Source: Bacteroidales bacterium (lineage in GTDB: Bacteria > Bacteroidota > Bacteroidia > Bacteroidales > UBA1715). Taken from it: 41,970 nt of DNA. The translations under genes and the position numbers were made by a program. This document shows, piece after piece, positions 2,168-5,177 of this stretch; position 1 is the stretch's first letter; every line of letters starts with the position of its first letter. The stretch spans positions 1-41,970 of the forward strand of contig JAFZOY010000128.1 of the NCBI GenBank assembly GCA_017552705.1, given 5' to 3'. Under the pieces are notes generated by a model. That model was not told the DNA's origin and did not search any database. It was given only the letters and a program-made list of their open reading frames with translations.

Positions 2168-3241
2168 TTAACTATTAACGATTTCCGTTTGAATATTGAT
2201 TGATTCTTGGTGAATTGCTTTAAACGTTTTTTCAATCAATTCGTCGCTCAACCCTTTTTCAGCGCCACGGGCAAGTTTGTCTGTCAAGATTTGGTCCCAA
2301 CGATGTGATTGGAATACTTGCACATTGTTTTCCTTTTTCGTCTTACCCATTTCGCGACATACGTCCATACGTTTCGAAAGCGTGTCGAGCAACATTTCGT
2401 CAAGTACGTCGATTTTTGCACGAAGTTCGCTCATAACTTCCTTGTAATCAGCATTATTCGTTCCGCGTTCACGAACAACCAAACTATTCAGGATTTCGCC
2501 TAAATTTTTCGGCGTGAATTGTTGCTTCGAGTCGCTTAACGCCATGTCGGGATTGCAGTGTGATTCAATAATCAAACCATTTGCGCCCAAATCCAACGAT
2601 TTTTGTGCCAATTCCTGAACATATTCGCGTTTTCCTGCCATGTGGCTTGGGTCGCAGATAATTGGCAATTCAGGGATTCGGCGATGTAATTCTATCGCCA
2701 TCTGCCACTGCGGAGCGTTACGGTATTTTATTTTTTCGAACGATGAAAAACCACGGTGAATTGCACCGAGTTTCGTGATTCCGGCACCGGCAATTCGCTC
2801 GAAAGCACCAATCCACAATTCCAAGTCGGGATTGATAGGATTCTTGATAAGCACAGGAATGTCAACGCCTTTCAACTCGTTGGCGATTTCTTGCACGGCA
2901 AACGGATTCACCGTCGTACGGGCACCAATCCAAAGAATGTCAACACCCATTTTGAGGGCTTCGTTCACGTGTTTCTGGCAGGCGACTTCGGTTGCCGTAA
3001 GCATTCCATATTCCTTTTTAACTCGTTTCAACCACGCCAATCCTTCGAAACCAACGCCTTCGAATGAATTTGGACGAGTGCGAGGTTTCCAAATACCCGC
3101 ACGGAAAATTTGTACACCAATTTCTTTCAATCCTTTGGCAGTTTCCATTACCTGCTCTTCTGATTCTGCACTACACGGGCCTGCTATGATTACAGGACGC
3201 TTTGCGTTAATTCCCCATGTTTCTATACTATCTACTTTCAT
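2168..3241 (-). CDS. bifunctional DAHP synthase / chorismate mutase
   Basis: The 357-residue protein is a fusion. Residues 1-255 form a small-type DAHP synthase of the KDO8P-synthase-like fold (GPCSAES at 21-27, KPRTRP at 52-57, CDPSHMAGKR at 196-205), which condenses phosphoenolpyruvate with erythrose 4-phosphate at the entry to the shikimate pathway. Residues 265-350 form an AroQ-type chorismate mutase (ELRAKID near 272, then RMDVCREMGKTKK), which makes prephenate from chorismate. This joins the first step to the branch step feeding TyrA and PheA, the next genes upstream. In homologous fusions the mutase domain also serves as a prephenate- or chorismate-sensing inhibitor domain. It is third in the operon, 10 bp after tyrA, and is expected to be under the pheA attenuator. 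Confidence 0.93.
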   Translation of the reverse strand: MKVDSIETWGINAKRPVIIAGPCSAESEEQVMETAKGLKEIGVQIFRAGIWKPRTRPNSFEGVGFEGLAWLKRVKKEYGMLTATEVACQKHVNEALKMGVDILWIGARTTVNPFAVQEIANELKGVDIPVLIKNPINPDLELWIGAFERIAGAGITKLGAIHRGFSSFEKIKYRNAPQWQMAIELHRRIPELPIICDPSHMAGKREYVQELAQKSLDLGANGLIIESHCNPDMALSDSKQQFTPKNLGEILNSLVVRERGTNNADYKEVMSELRAKIDVLDEMLLDTLSKRMDVCREMGKTKKENNVQVFQSHRWDQILTDKLARGAEKGLSDELIEKTFKAIHQESINIQTEIVNS

Positions 3242-3251
3242 TTTTATTATT

Positions 3252-4094
3252 TTATCCTTTTAATACGTCTTTAATTCTATTTGCTTCTTTTATTTCGTCA
3301 AACAATTCTTTTGTCTTGTCATCAGCAATCAGTTGTTTGAAATGATTCAACACGTCAATGTATTTGTCGATTGAATCCGTCAGGAAACGGGCGTTTTGGC
3401 GGAAAATCGGCGTCCACATTGCCGACGAACTTTTTGCGATTCGCACGGTCGAGGCGAAACCACTGCCTGCCATTTCGAAGATTTTCTTTTCCTCGTTTTT
3501 CTCAATTTCCTGAACCGTCAAACTCAATGCGTATGCAATCACGTGCGTAAGGTGCGACACGTAGGCAATGTGTTTGTCGTGGTCTTCGGCCGACATATAC
3601 AACACGCTCATTCCTAATAACTTATAAAGTGTTAGCGCACGTTTGAGAGCAAAATCGCTACTCAATTCTTTCTCGCAGATGATTGCCTTCTTGTCCTTGA
3701 ACAAACCAGCAAATGCAGCTGTTGGTCCCGAAAACTCCGTTCCAGCCATAGGGTGCGAAGCAACGAAATTTCCTCGGCGAGGGTGATTCCGTACTTTTCC
3801 GCAGATTCCCGCCTTTGTCGAACCAGTGTCAATTACAACAGCATCGTCGCGCATTGTGTCGAGTATTGACGGAAGCATTTCGCGTGCCGCATCCACAGGT
3901 ATTGAGATAATAATCAAATCAGCAATCAAAACAGCTTGTTCCAGCGGCATAGCCATATCGATAATACCAAGTTCTATCGCTTTTTTCAGGTTTTCTTCGC
4001 TTGCATCAACACCAATGATTTTTGTCTCAAAACCACGGGCGGAAAGTGCCATTGAGCCGCCAATCAAACCTGTTCCTATAACTACAATATTCAT
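3252..4094 (-). CDS. tyrA: prephenate dehydrogenase
   Basis: The 280-residue protein begins with an NAD(P)-binding Rossmann motif (IGTGLIGGS, residues 6-14). It has the SHPMAGTEFSGP signature of TyrA near residue 115 and a His-rich SHLTH segment near 180. It oxidatively decarboxylates prephenate to 4-hydroxyphenylpyruvate for tyrosine synthesis in the cytoplasm. There is no C-terminal ACT domain, so feedback control by tyrosine, if any, must act elsewhere, for example by attenuation. Spacing to pheA is 1 bp and to the DAHP synthase gene 10 bp, a tight three-gene operon. No aromatic aminotransferase is included. Confidence 0.93.
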   Translation of the reverse strand: MNIVVIGTGLIGGSMALSARGFETKIIGVDASEENLKKAIELGIIDMAMPLEQAVLIADLIIISIPVDAAREMLPSILDTMRDDAVVIDTGSTKAGICGKVRNHPRRGNFVASHPMAGTEFSGPTAAFAGLFKDKKAIICEKELSSDFALKRALTLYKLLGMSVLYMSAEDHDKHIAYVSHLTHVIAYALSLTVQEIEKNEEKKIFEMAGSGFASTVRIAKSSSAMWTPIFRQNARFLTDSIDKYIDVLNHFKQLIADDKTKELFDEIKEANRIKDVLKG

Positions 4095-4095
4095 A

Positions 4096-4932
4096 TTAGT
4101 TCAATATTTCGTAATTAAATTTTTCGTCACGTTTATATTCTCCCAAGACCGAAAGATTTGAAACCACCTTCAACACTGCTGCCAAAGCGGCGTCAAACTT
4201 GTTTTTGTCTTTCCATTCCAAATCCACGTAGAATGTATATTGATACGGACTTCCCAAAATAGGAAGCGACTGGATTTTGGTAAGATTTATCTCATGTTGC
4301 TTGAATGCCGCCAACACATCGACAAGCGAACCTGGCTGATGCGACAATTCAAAACAAATCGATGCCTTGTTATTTTCCTCACTATCGACGGGAATACGGC
4401 TCAGGGCAAGAAAACGAGTGTAATTTTTCTTGTGCGTCTGAATGTTACGGGCAAGTATTTCCAAGCCATACAATTCAGCGGCATATTCACTTGCGATAGC
4501 TGCCGCATTCGTAAGATTTTCCTCAACGATTTTCTGGGCACTCGAAGCCGTGTCGGACCAGTTGATGATTTTTATGTCGGGATAATTGTCGAGAAAATCC
4601 TTGCTTTGCTGGATTGCGATGGGATGCGAATACACCTCGTGGATGTCCTCGATTTTCGTTCCCGGCAACACCATAAGATTTTGCGTGATATGAAGGCTAA
4701 TTTCGCCAATCACCTTGAGTTTTGAGCGTTTGAGTAACAAATAATTTTCAAGAATACTACCAGCAATGGTATTTTCTATGGCGCAAATGCCATAGTCGGC
4801 AGTGCCGTGTTCCACAGCCGAGAACAAATCCTTGAACTGGTTGCAGTTGAGCGTTGTAATGTCGTCGCCGAAATACTCTTTGGCGGCTATTTCGTGGAAT
4901 GCTCCGTTCACACCTTGAATCGCAATTTTCAT
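4096..4932 (-). CDS. pheA: prephenate dehydratase
   Basis: The 278-residue protein has a periplasmic-binding-like catalytic domain (residues 1-180, with ENTIAGS near 53 and the essential TRF motif at 172-174) and a C-terminal ACT domain (about 190-270). It converts prephenate to phenylpyruvate. The usual ACT motifs GALV and ESRP appear here as GSLV and QSLP; this variation is familiar in Bacteroidetes and may change phenylalanine sensing. The frame is open upstream to 4989, but the ATG at 4932 gives the standard N-terminus MKIAIQG. The upstream extension would read through the attenuator hairpin and its T run (the source of a spurious Phe triplet). It is the first gene after the leader. Confidence 0.94.
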   Translation of the reverse strand: MKIAIQGVNGAFHEIAAKEYFGDDITTLNCNQFKDLFSAVEHGTADYGICAIENTIAGSILENYLLLKRSKLKVIGEISLHITQNLMVLPGTKIEDIHEVYSHPIAIQQSKDFLDNYPDIKIINWSDTASSAQKIVEENLTNAAAIASEYAAELYGLEILARNIQTHKKNYTRFLALSRIPVDSEENNKASICFELSHQPGSLVDVLAAFKQHEINLTKIQSLPILGSPYQYTFYVDLEWKDKNKFDAALAAVLKVVSNLSVLGEYKRDEKFNYEILN

Positions 4933-4947
4933 ATTTTTATATTTTTC

Positions 4948-4978
4948 AAAAAAAAAGCCCCGATTTTCATCGAGGCTT
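4948..4978 (-). terminator. attenuator terminator ahead of pheA
   Basis: On the minus strand a 10-bp stem (4969-4978 with 4955-4964, one G-U pair) with a GAAA loop is followed by a 9-T run ending at 4948. It stands 15 bp before the pheA ATG and 27 bp after the leader-peptide stop. Its 5' arm (AGCCTCG, 4971-4977) is also exactly complementary to a segment inside the leader peptide gene (5018-5024), so the terminator can be undone by an alternative pairing. Confidence 0.88.
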
Positions 4979-5005
4979 CGTTTATACAATTTTAATTCAT
5001 TTCAA

Positions 5006-5083
5006 TTACATACACACAGCCTCGCTTTTACCTTCGTAAAAGAAGTAAAAATAAAAGTAAAAGAATGTGTTTTTTGTCTTCAT
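5006..5083 (-). CDS. Phe/Tyr attenuation leader peptide
   Basis: This is a 25-codon ORF (ATG at 5083, TAA at 5006-5008). After MKTKNT it encodes FFYFYFYFFY: six Phe and four Tyr codons without interruption, then EGKSEAVCM. It starts about 15-20 nt after the expected transcription start. A run of ten aromatic codons has no structural meaning for so short a peptide and marks it as a sensor of aminoacyl-tRNA, like enterobacterial PheL. The use of both Phe and Tyr codons fits the operon, which makes both amino acids. Confidence 0.87.
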   Translation of the reverse strand: MKTKNTFFYFYFYFFYEGKSEAVCM

Positions 5084-5177
5084 ACTTGTTCGTTTTTGAC
5101 GGAGCAAATATATTAAAAAAAGTATTTGTTGTACTCGCTGAGAAAATTTTTTGTGTCAAAAATATACGTACACAAAT

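Follow-up and report, generated by a model that had tools for sequence, protein, structure and literature searches.

A probable ribosome-mediated attenuator with mixed phenylalanine and tyrosine codons ahead of pheA in a Bacteroidales bacterium and its relatives in the phylum Bacteroidota

Results and Discussion

The window analysed in this study (41,970 nucleotides; contig JAFZOY010000128.1 of assembly GCA_017552705.1, a Bacteroidales bacterium) very probably contains, in front of pheA-tyrA-DAHPS/CM, a leader-peptide attenuator of the trp/phe type, in which a ribosome controls transcription by way of a mixed run of Phe and Tyr codons. A cluster of codons for the end products in a short ORF, an intrinsic terminator before the first gene, an antiterminator and, in the predicted fold, a 1:2 structure over the control codons were all found in this region (Table 1). 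The genes for prephenate dehydratase, prephenate dehydrogenase and the DAHP synthase-chorismate mutase fusion follow each other nearly without gaps, and the amino acids made by this operon are exactly the two coded in the run.

Table 1. Features of the pheA leader region and the downstream operon (positions in the window)
Feature	Position	Strand	Basis and remarks
DAHP synthase fused to chorismate mutase	2168..3241	-	Pfam PF00793 and PF01817
tyrA, prephenate dehydrogenase	3252..4094	-	Pfam PF02153 and PF20463
pheA, prephenate dehydratase, first gene of the operon	4096..4932	-	Pfam PF00800 (E 8e-62); ATG at 4932
T tail of the terminator, 7 T (9 T with two inside the stem)	4948..4954	-	sequence
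Terminator hairpin (3:4), 10 bp, GAAA loop	4955..4978	-	sequence, terminator scan, fold
Predicted antiterminator hairpin (2:3), inner stem around GUAUGUAAUU/AAUUGUAU	4969..5024	-	RNA fold
Leader ORF, 25 codons and stop, product MKTKNTFFYFYFYFFYEGKSEAVCM*	5006..5083	-	direct reading; ATG at 5083, TAA at 5008-5006
Segment 2, antiterminator arm CGAGGCT	5018..5024	-	exact complement of 4977-4971 (AGCCTCG)
Inner 1:2 hairpin CUUUUAC-gaag-GUAAAAG, covering the end of the run	5025..5042	-	sequence and folds
Regulatory run FFYFYFYFFY, ten Phe/Tyr codons	5036..5065	-	direct reading
Segment 1 (ACACA-U-UCUU), partner of the arm and its flank in the 1:2 structure	5061..5070	-	MFE fold of the leader RNA
TAnnTTTG -7 promoter box TATATTTG	5105..5112	-	exact match; 29 nt before the leader ATG

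Leader ORF, codon run and promoter box

The 25-codon ORF with its uninterrupted aromatic run, described in an earlier note on this DNA, was confirmed by direct reading, and the -7 box which that note had placed ahead of the ORF matches the consensus exactly. Among 83 non-redundant leaders of relatives, 44 had TAnnTTTG at most 60 nt ahead of their ATG (3.1 expected by shuffling, maximum 9), mostly at a distance of 25-29 nt. Codons for both Phe and Tyr were found in 82 of these 83 leaders, and the mean composition of the ten-codon windows was 4.5 Phe, 3.4 Tyr and 0.2 Trp codons. These counts support the earlier suggestion that mixed codons would allow a single switch to sense both end products.

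An eight-codon run of Phe and Tyr codons is by itself not very rare in the AT-rich source genome, in which a TWY-type run of this length occurs at two places, compared to three matches of the reversed control pattern. Chance is excluded because of the full assembly and its conservation, i.e. the folding z-score, the antiterminator z-score and the frequency of leaders in upstream regions reported below, and not because of the codon run alone.

Hairpins of the leader RNA

The arms of the terminator are AAGCCTCGAT (4978-4969) and ATCGGGGCTT (4964-4955). The stem of 10 bp thus agrees with the earlier description, but the "nine T" said to follow it do not: they span 4956-4948, and the first two belong to the stem, which leaves a tail of seven T. 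The claimed exact complementarity between segment 2 and the 5' arm of the terminator holds (shuffle p 0.003, the lowest value attainable with 300 shuffles). When folded separately, the stretch from this antiterminator arm to the 5' arm of the terminator gives a long hairpin (-17.4 kcal/mol, z -6.2).

The complete leader RNA has a predicted folding energy of -31.4 kcal/mol (z -3.5 versus dinucleotide shuffles). Beside the terminator, ACACA-UCUU at the start of the run pairs in this fold with GAGG-UGUGU, which buries the antiterminator arm. The inner hairpin is formed by CUUUUAC (5042-5036) and GUAAAAG (5031-5025), and a hairpin better than -0.5 kcal/mol occurs at the corresponding position in 62 of the 83 relatives. 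A hairpin covering the end of the run, as described earlier, is therefore present, but it does not represent the whole structure, being only the tip of a longer 1:2 fold. As a 1:2 switch of its own the small hairpin was dropped because it does not overlap with the antiterminator arm, whereas the longer fold does. According to these fold models, the classical set of 1:2, 2:3 and 3:4 structures is present.

A TRTG motif following the arm is enriched in the relatives (44 of 83, compared to 21.6 by shuffling) and was considered as a pause site. The enrichment does not demonstrate pausing, since segment 1 (CAUA) and the inner antiterminator stem are also possible pairing partners of these bases.

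Conservation across Bacteroidota

Of 99 relatives, 47 yielded PheA, and so did 258 of 296 genomes drawn from the phylum as a whole. The analysis covered 134 distinct pheA upstream regions of usable length from these loci, a sample weighted to loci resembling that of the window. An ORF of 8-60 codons beginning with ATG, the only start codon considered, and comprising at least six F/Y/W codons within ten codons was detected in 102 of the 134 regions, compared to 2 of 134 on the opposite strand. A terminator follows the run in 96 of these 102 leader-bearing regions. The earlier note had proposed a comparison of the pheA upstream regions across Bacteroidales, in which conserved aromatic codons with covarying stems would favour an attenuator; the comparison gave this outcome and extends it to further orders of Bacteroidota. 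Among the carriers are Parabacteroides sp. An277, Dysgonomonas sp. 520, Mucilaginibacter frigoritolerans, Chitinophaga costaii and Chryseosolibacter indicus. Judged from the sequences, a putative Phe/Tyr attenuator occurs throughout most of the phylum Bacteroidota.

Within the family to which the window belongs, the attenuator was found at 11 of 13 loci, while one locus (L005) retains only a remnant and another (L011) has none. L005 belongs to a congener with 82% PheA identity, and its leader has shrunk to MKESKYIFL* with a weak hairpin; apparently, the attenuator has decayed recently within the genus. At seven Prolixibacteraceae-type loci (L037, L038, L045, L058, L067, L081 and L083), among them those of Mariniphaga, Maribellus and Draconibacterium, no aromatic leader with terminator was detected within 2.5 kb upstream of pheA. 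Since this congener and lineages such as Draconibacterium and Maribellus do without it, the leader is dispensable.

Five loci (L019, L020, L069, L103 and L106), including both Chitinophaga loci, possess two leader-plus-terminator units in tandem before pheA, where the second hairpin of L019 lies below the criteria of the script and was read by eye. Such units possibly act as attenuators in series, with a response that is steeper or graded.

The upstream neighbours of the leaders also differ. In seven relatives (L002, L003, L006, L007, L008, L009 and L013) the leader ATG is located just downstream of the end of an outer-membrane-protein-like reading frame, whereas in the window a rubrerythrin gene with its own terminator lies upstream of the leader.

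Covariation of arm and terminator

The best duplex between the interval from run to terminator and the 5' arm of the terminator reached a mean score of 19.2, compared to 11.2 in shuffled sequences. The antiterminator arm surpassed the shuffles with p<0.05 in 80 of 96 loci and with p<0.01 in 57, where the choice of the best duplex biases the values of individual loci upward and the shuffles share this bias. Furthermore, arms matched the terminator of their own locus more closely than terminators from elsewhere in the set (19.2 vs 13.7; Wilcoxon p 4e-15), with 74 distinct terminator arms among 83 loci. Arm and terminator therefore change together, as illustrated by CGAGGCT/AGCCTCG in the window, GCGGGGT with the terminator arm AGGCCCCGCG in L033 and GGCAGGA/TCCTGCC in L089. 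This cross-locus duplex test was used in place of a formal covariance model because the leaders are too divergent to be aligned outside the arms.

The distance from the last aromatic codon to the start of the arm is about 8-16 nt in nearly all loci, whereas that from the run to the stop codon ranges between 6 and 42 nt. Within the arm and the following 14 nt, 14.1 bases pair with the leader ORF, compared to 10.3 after shuffling of the codon order (Wilcoxon p 4e-14); relative to such codon-shuffled controls, the 1:2 pairing showed z>1 in 53 of 83 loci and z<-1 in one. At five Cytophagales loci (L041, L048, L050, L066 and L073), segment 1 apparently gives way to AAGCGAUU or AACCGAUU, located where the run starts, which pair with AAUCGCUU or AAUCGGUU after the arm. 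This apparent compensating change was read by eye.

Proposed mechanism and folding models with a ribosome

Transcription would start just after the TAnnTTTG box, and a ribosome would begin at the leader ATG. When charged tRNA-Phe or tRNA-Tyr is scarce, the ribosome would stall in the run and occupy segment 1, so that the arm CGAGGCU is free to pair with the 5' arm of the terminator (2:3) and RNA polymerase may read into the operon. If both tRNAs are charged, the ribosome would pass the run and cover the arm; the 3:4 terminator would form and transcription would stop near position 4948. In the absence of a ribosome, the 1:2 structure would hold the arm, and termination would be the default.

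For the folding models, the bases from -17 to +12 around the A-site were kept single-stranded and the RNA was cut at the end of the 5' arm of the terminator; as equilibrium models of an out-of-equilibrium process, they show only that the anatomy permits such a switch. In the window, the probability of the antiterminator was 0.99 up to the last Tyr codon and decreased to 0.69, 0.14 and 0.00 at the subsequent positions. The mean of the set was about 0.9 in the run and 0.80 at the last aromatic codon, followed by 0.43, 0.10 and 0.03. In the models, the antiterminator thus collapses just as the A-site leaves the run.

With the full RNA, the probability of the terminator was 0.99 without a ribosome and 1.00 with a ribosome at the stop codon. 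Thermodynamics favour termination at most ribosome positions here, and the antiterminator reaches at most 0.53, when the A-site is at codon 9; the switch must therefore rely on the antiterminator forming first. The truncated RNA of the window forms the antiterminator also without any ribosome (0.99), and default termination therefore needs either prior formation of the 1:2 structure or displacement by the finished terminator. The mean energies of antiterminator and terminator are balanced (-16.4 and -15.6 kcal/mol).

Alternative explanations

A leader and switch of the same appearance would also be expected if the aromatic-rich nascent peptide arrested the ribosome in the manner of TnaC or SecM, perhaps by sensing free Phe or Tyr, so that the same hairpins would be switched by something other than tRNA scarcity, and the runs are indeed long and hydrophobic. 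Arrest peptides conserve particular residues, but in the leaders of the relatives F, Y and W change their order and place freely and just their abundance is kept. The C-terminal residues vary as well and follow the RNA arm (EAVCM for GAGGCT, SRD for CGGGAC). Moreover, His, Trp and Val/Ile leaders precede the matching operons in the same genome. Peptide arrest is thus very unlikely. The released leader RNA or peptide might, besides or instead of the cis switch, also act in trans on other genes, as has been reported for some trp leaders. A short RNA ending at the terminator would arise in rich medium, and the tests applied here address pairing in cis; the cis switch, however, accounts for all conserved features, and the peptides share no conserved sequence beyond their aromatic content, which makes a role in trans highly improbable.

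Runs of Phe and Tyr codons being not very rare in an AT-rich genome, the ORF could further be a by-product of base composition, and the hairpin might merely terminate a small RNA or the rubrerythrin gene located upstream. The rubrerythrin gene, however, has a terminator of its own at 5213-5181 according to the terminator scan and therefore does not need a second one. In addition, the combination of leader, arm and terminator is preserved ahead of pheA across the phylum irrespective of the upstream neighbour, which argues against this explanation and leaves it a negligible probability.

Relation to known systems

Leader-peptide attenuation is a classical textbook principle, and Vitreschak and colleagues are said to have mentioned attenuators of Bacteroidetes/Chlorobi in 2004. 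The enterobacterial pheA leader peptide PheL contains Phe codons without Tyr codons, and the leaders of ilvGMEDA and thrABC are multivalent attenuators. The window shares with the pheA leader (Rfam RF01859) a leader peptide rich in the end product, the 1:2, 2:3 and 3:4 pairings and a terminator before pheA; it differs in the mixture of Tyr with Phe codons (additionally Trp in some relatives), in an operon that adds tyrA and DAHP synthase, in its Bacteroidota-type promoter and in the lack of an evident Shine-Dalgarno sequence before the leader. With Escherichia coli trpL it has in common mutually exclusive hairpins, a 1:2 structure holding the antiterminator arm and, according to the fold models of the window, termination as the default without translation. 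trpL has two adjacent Trp codons, whereas the window has ten regulatory codons for two amino acids. Like the multivalent attenuators, the window's leader would sense more than one amino acid, in this case the pair Phe and Tyr.

At the gathering threshold, no Rfam family matched the window, and thus neither a curated T-box nor a curated amino-acid riboswitch family was matched; Phe_leader (RF01859) reached 36.2 bits, below its cut-off of 55 bits. Bacteroid-trp (RF01692), a predicted cis-regulatory RNA of Bacteroidetes and linked to trp genes by its name, matched neither the window nor the upstream stretches of trpB, hisG and ilvD of the same genome, for which Rfam gave no match at the gathering threshold.

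At the time of a survey from 2010, leader-peptide systems were known only from Proteobacteria and Actinobacteria, to which the survey added Firmicutes (PMC2965389). For Bacteroides thetaiotaomicron, a transcript map describes short ORFs in 5' UTRs as reminiscent of leader peptides (PMC7366714). In the transcriptome of Flavobacterium psychrophilum, published in 2021, amino-acid operons showed strong clues for attenuation by leader peptides, and pheA and hisG were found to have 5' elements which are conserved in Flavobacteriaceae and have no Rfam matches (PMC9723704). The impression given by the earlier note that this ground is unexplored in Bacteroidetes consequently holds only in part. The element of F. 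psychrophilum agrees with that of the window in gene and phylum and in being a structured 5' UTR; the Phe/Tyr run, the competing pairings and an occurrence beyond Flavobacteriaceae are not described in the available text. In the parts of the prior literature covered here, the phylum-wide spread and the Phe/Tyr mixture of the pheA leader do not appear.

Other leaders in the same genome

Reading upstream of operons in the same genome, gene by gene, revealed further leaders. hisG (L152) is preceded by a leader of seven codons, MIHHHSI*, with three His codons and a subsequent terminator, as well as a TAATTTTG box upstream; this is a candidate for a very short His attenuator. A search for His-codon patterns returned only ordinary His-rich proteins, and the hisG leader came from the upstream reading. 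The leader of trpB (L158), MKVLNNNFWWWQSYDIMS*, contains three Trp codons (WWW) and is followed by a terminator, and the Val/Ile-rich leader of ilvD (L154), MILETVFVVVVDVIQ*, was found together with a terminator and a box of the same sequence as that of pheA, TATATTTG. For thrA, no leader was found between the terminator of the 5S rRNA and the gene. In view of the hisG, trpB and ilvD leaders, this looks like a general attenuation regime.

Significance for Bacteroidota

On balance, it is probable that the Phe/Tyr attenuator ahead of pheA dates back to the ancestor of most Bacteroidota, as part of a regime of Phe/Tyr, Trp, His and Val/Ile/Leu leaders extending over the phylum, that it responds to two tRNAs in the manner of an OR-gate and is doubled in some lineages, and that the fixed spacing from codon to arm reflects ribosomes which closely follow RNA polymerase. 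One such switch would explain how a single operon for Phe and Tyr is adjusted to both products. The spacing from the last aromatic codon to the arm corresponds to about one ribosome half-footprint across orders and is hard to explain without coupled transcription and translation. Coupling of ribosomes and RNA polymerase has scarcely been tested in Bacteroidota. The results add to this phylum a large set of putative attenuators without an Rfam family, including those of cultured Parabacteroides, Dysgonomonas, Mucilaginibacter and Chitinophaga. This set is material for a new Rfam family and may serve as a ready-made assay of how closely ribosomes trail RNA polymerase in Bacteroidota.
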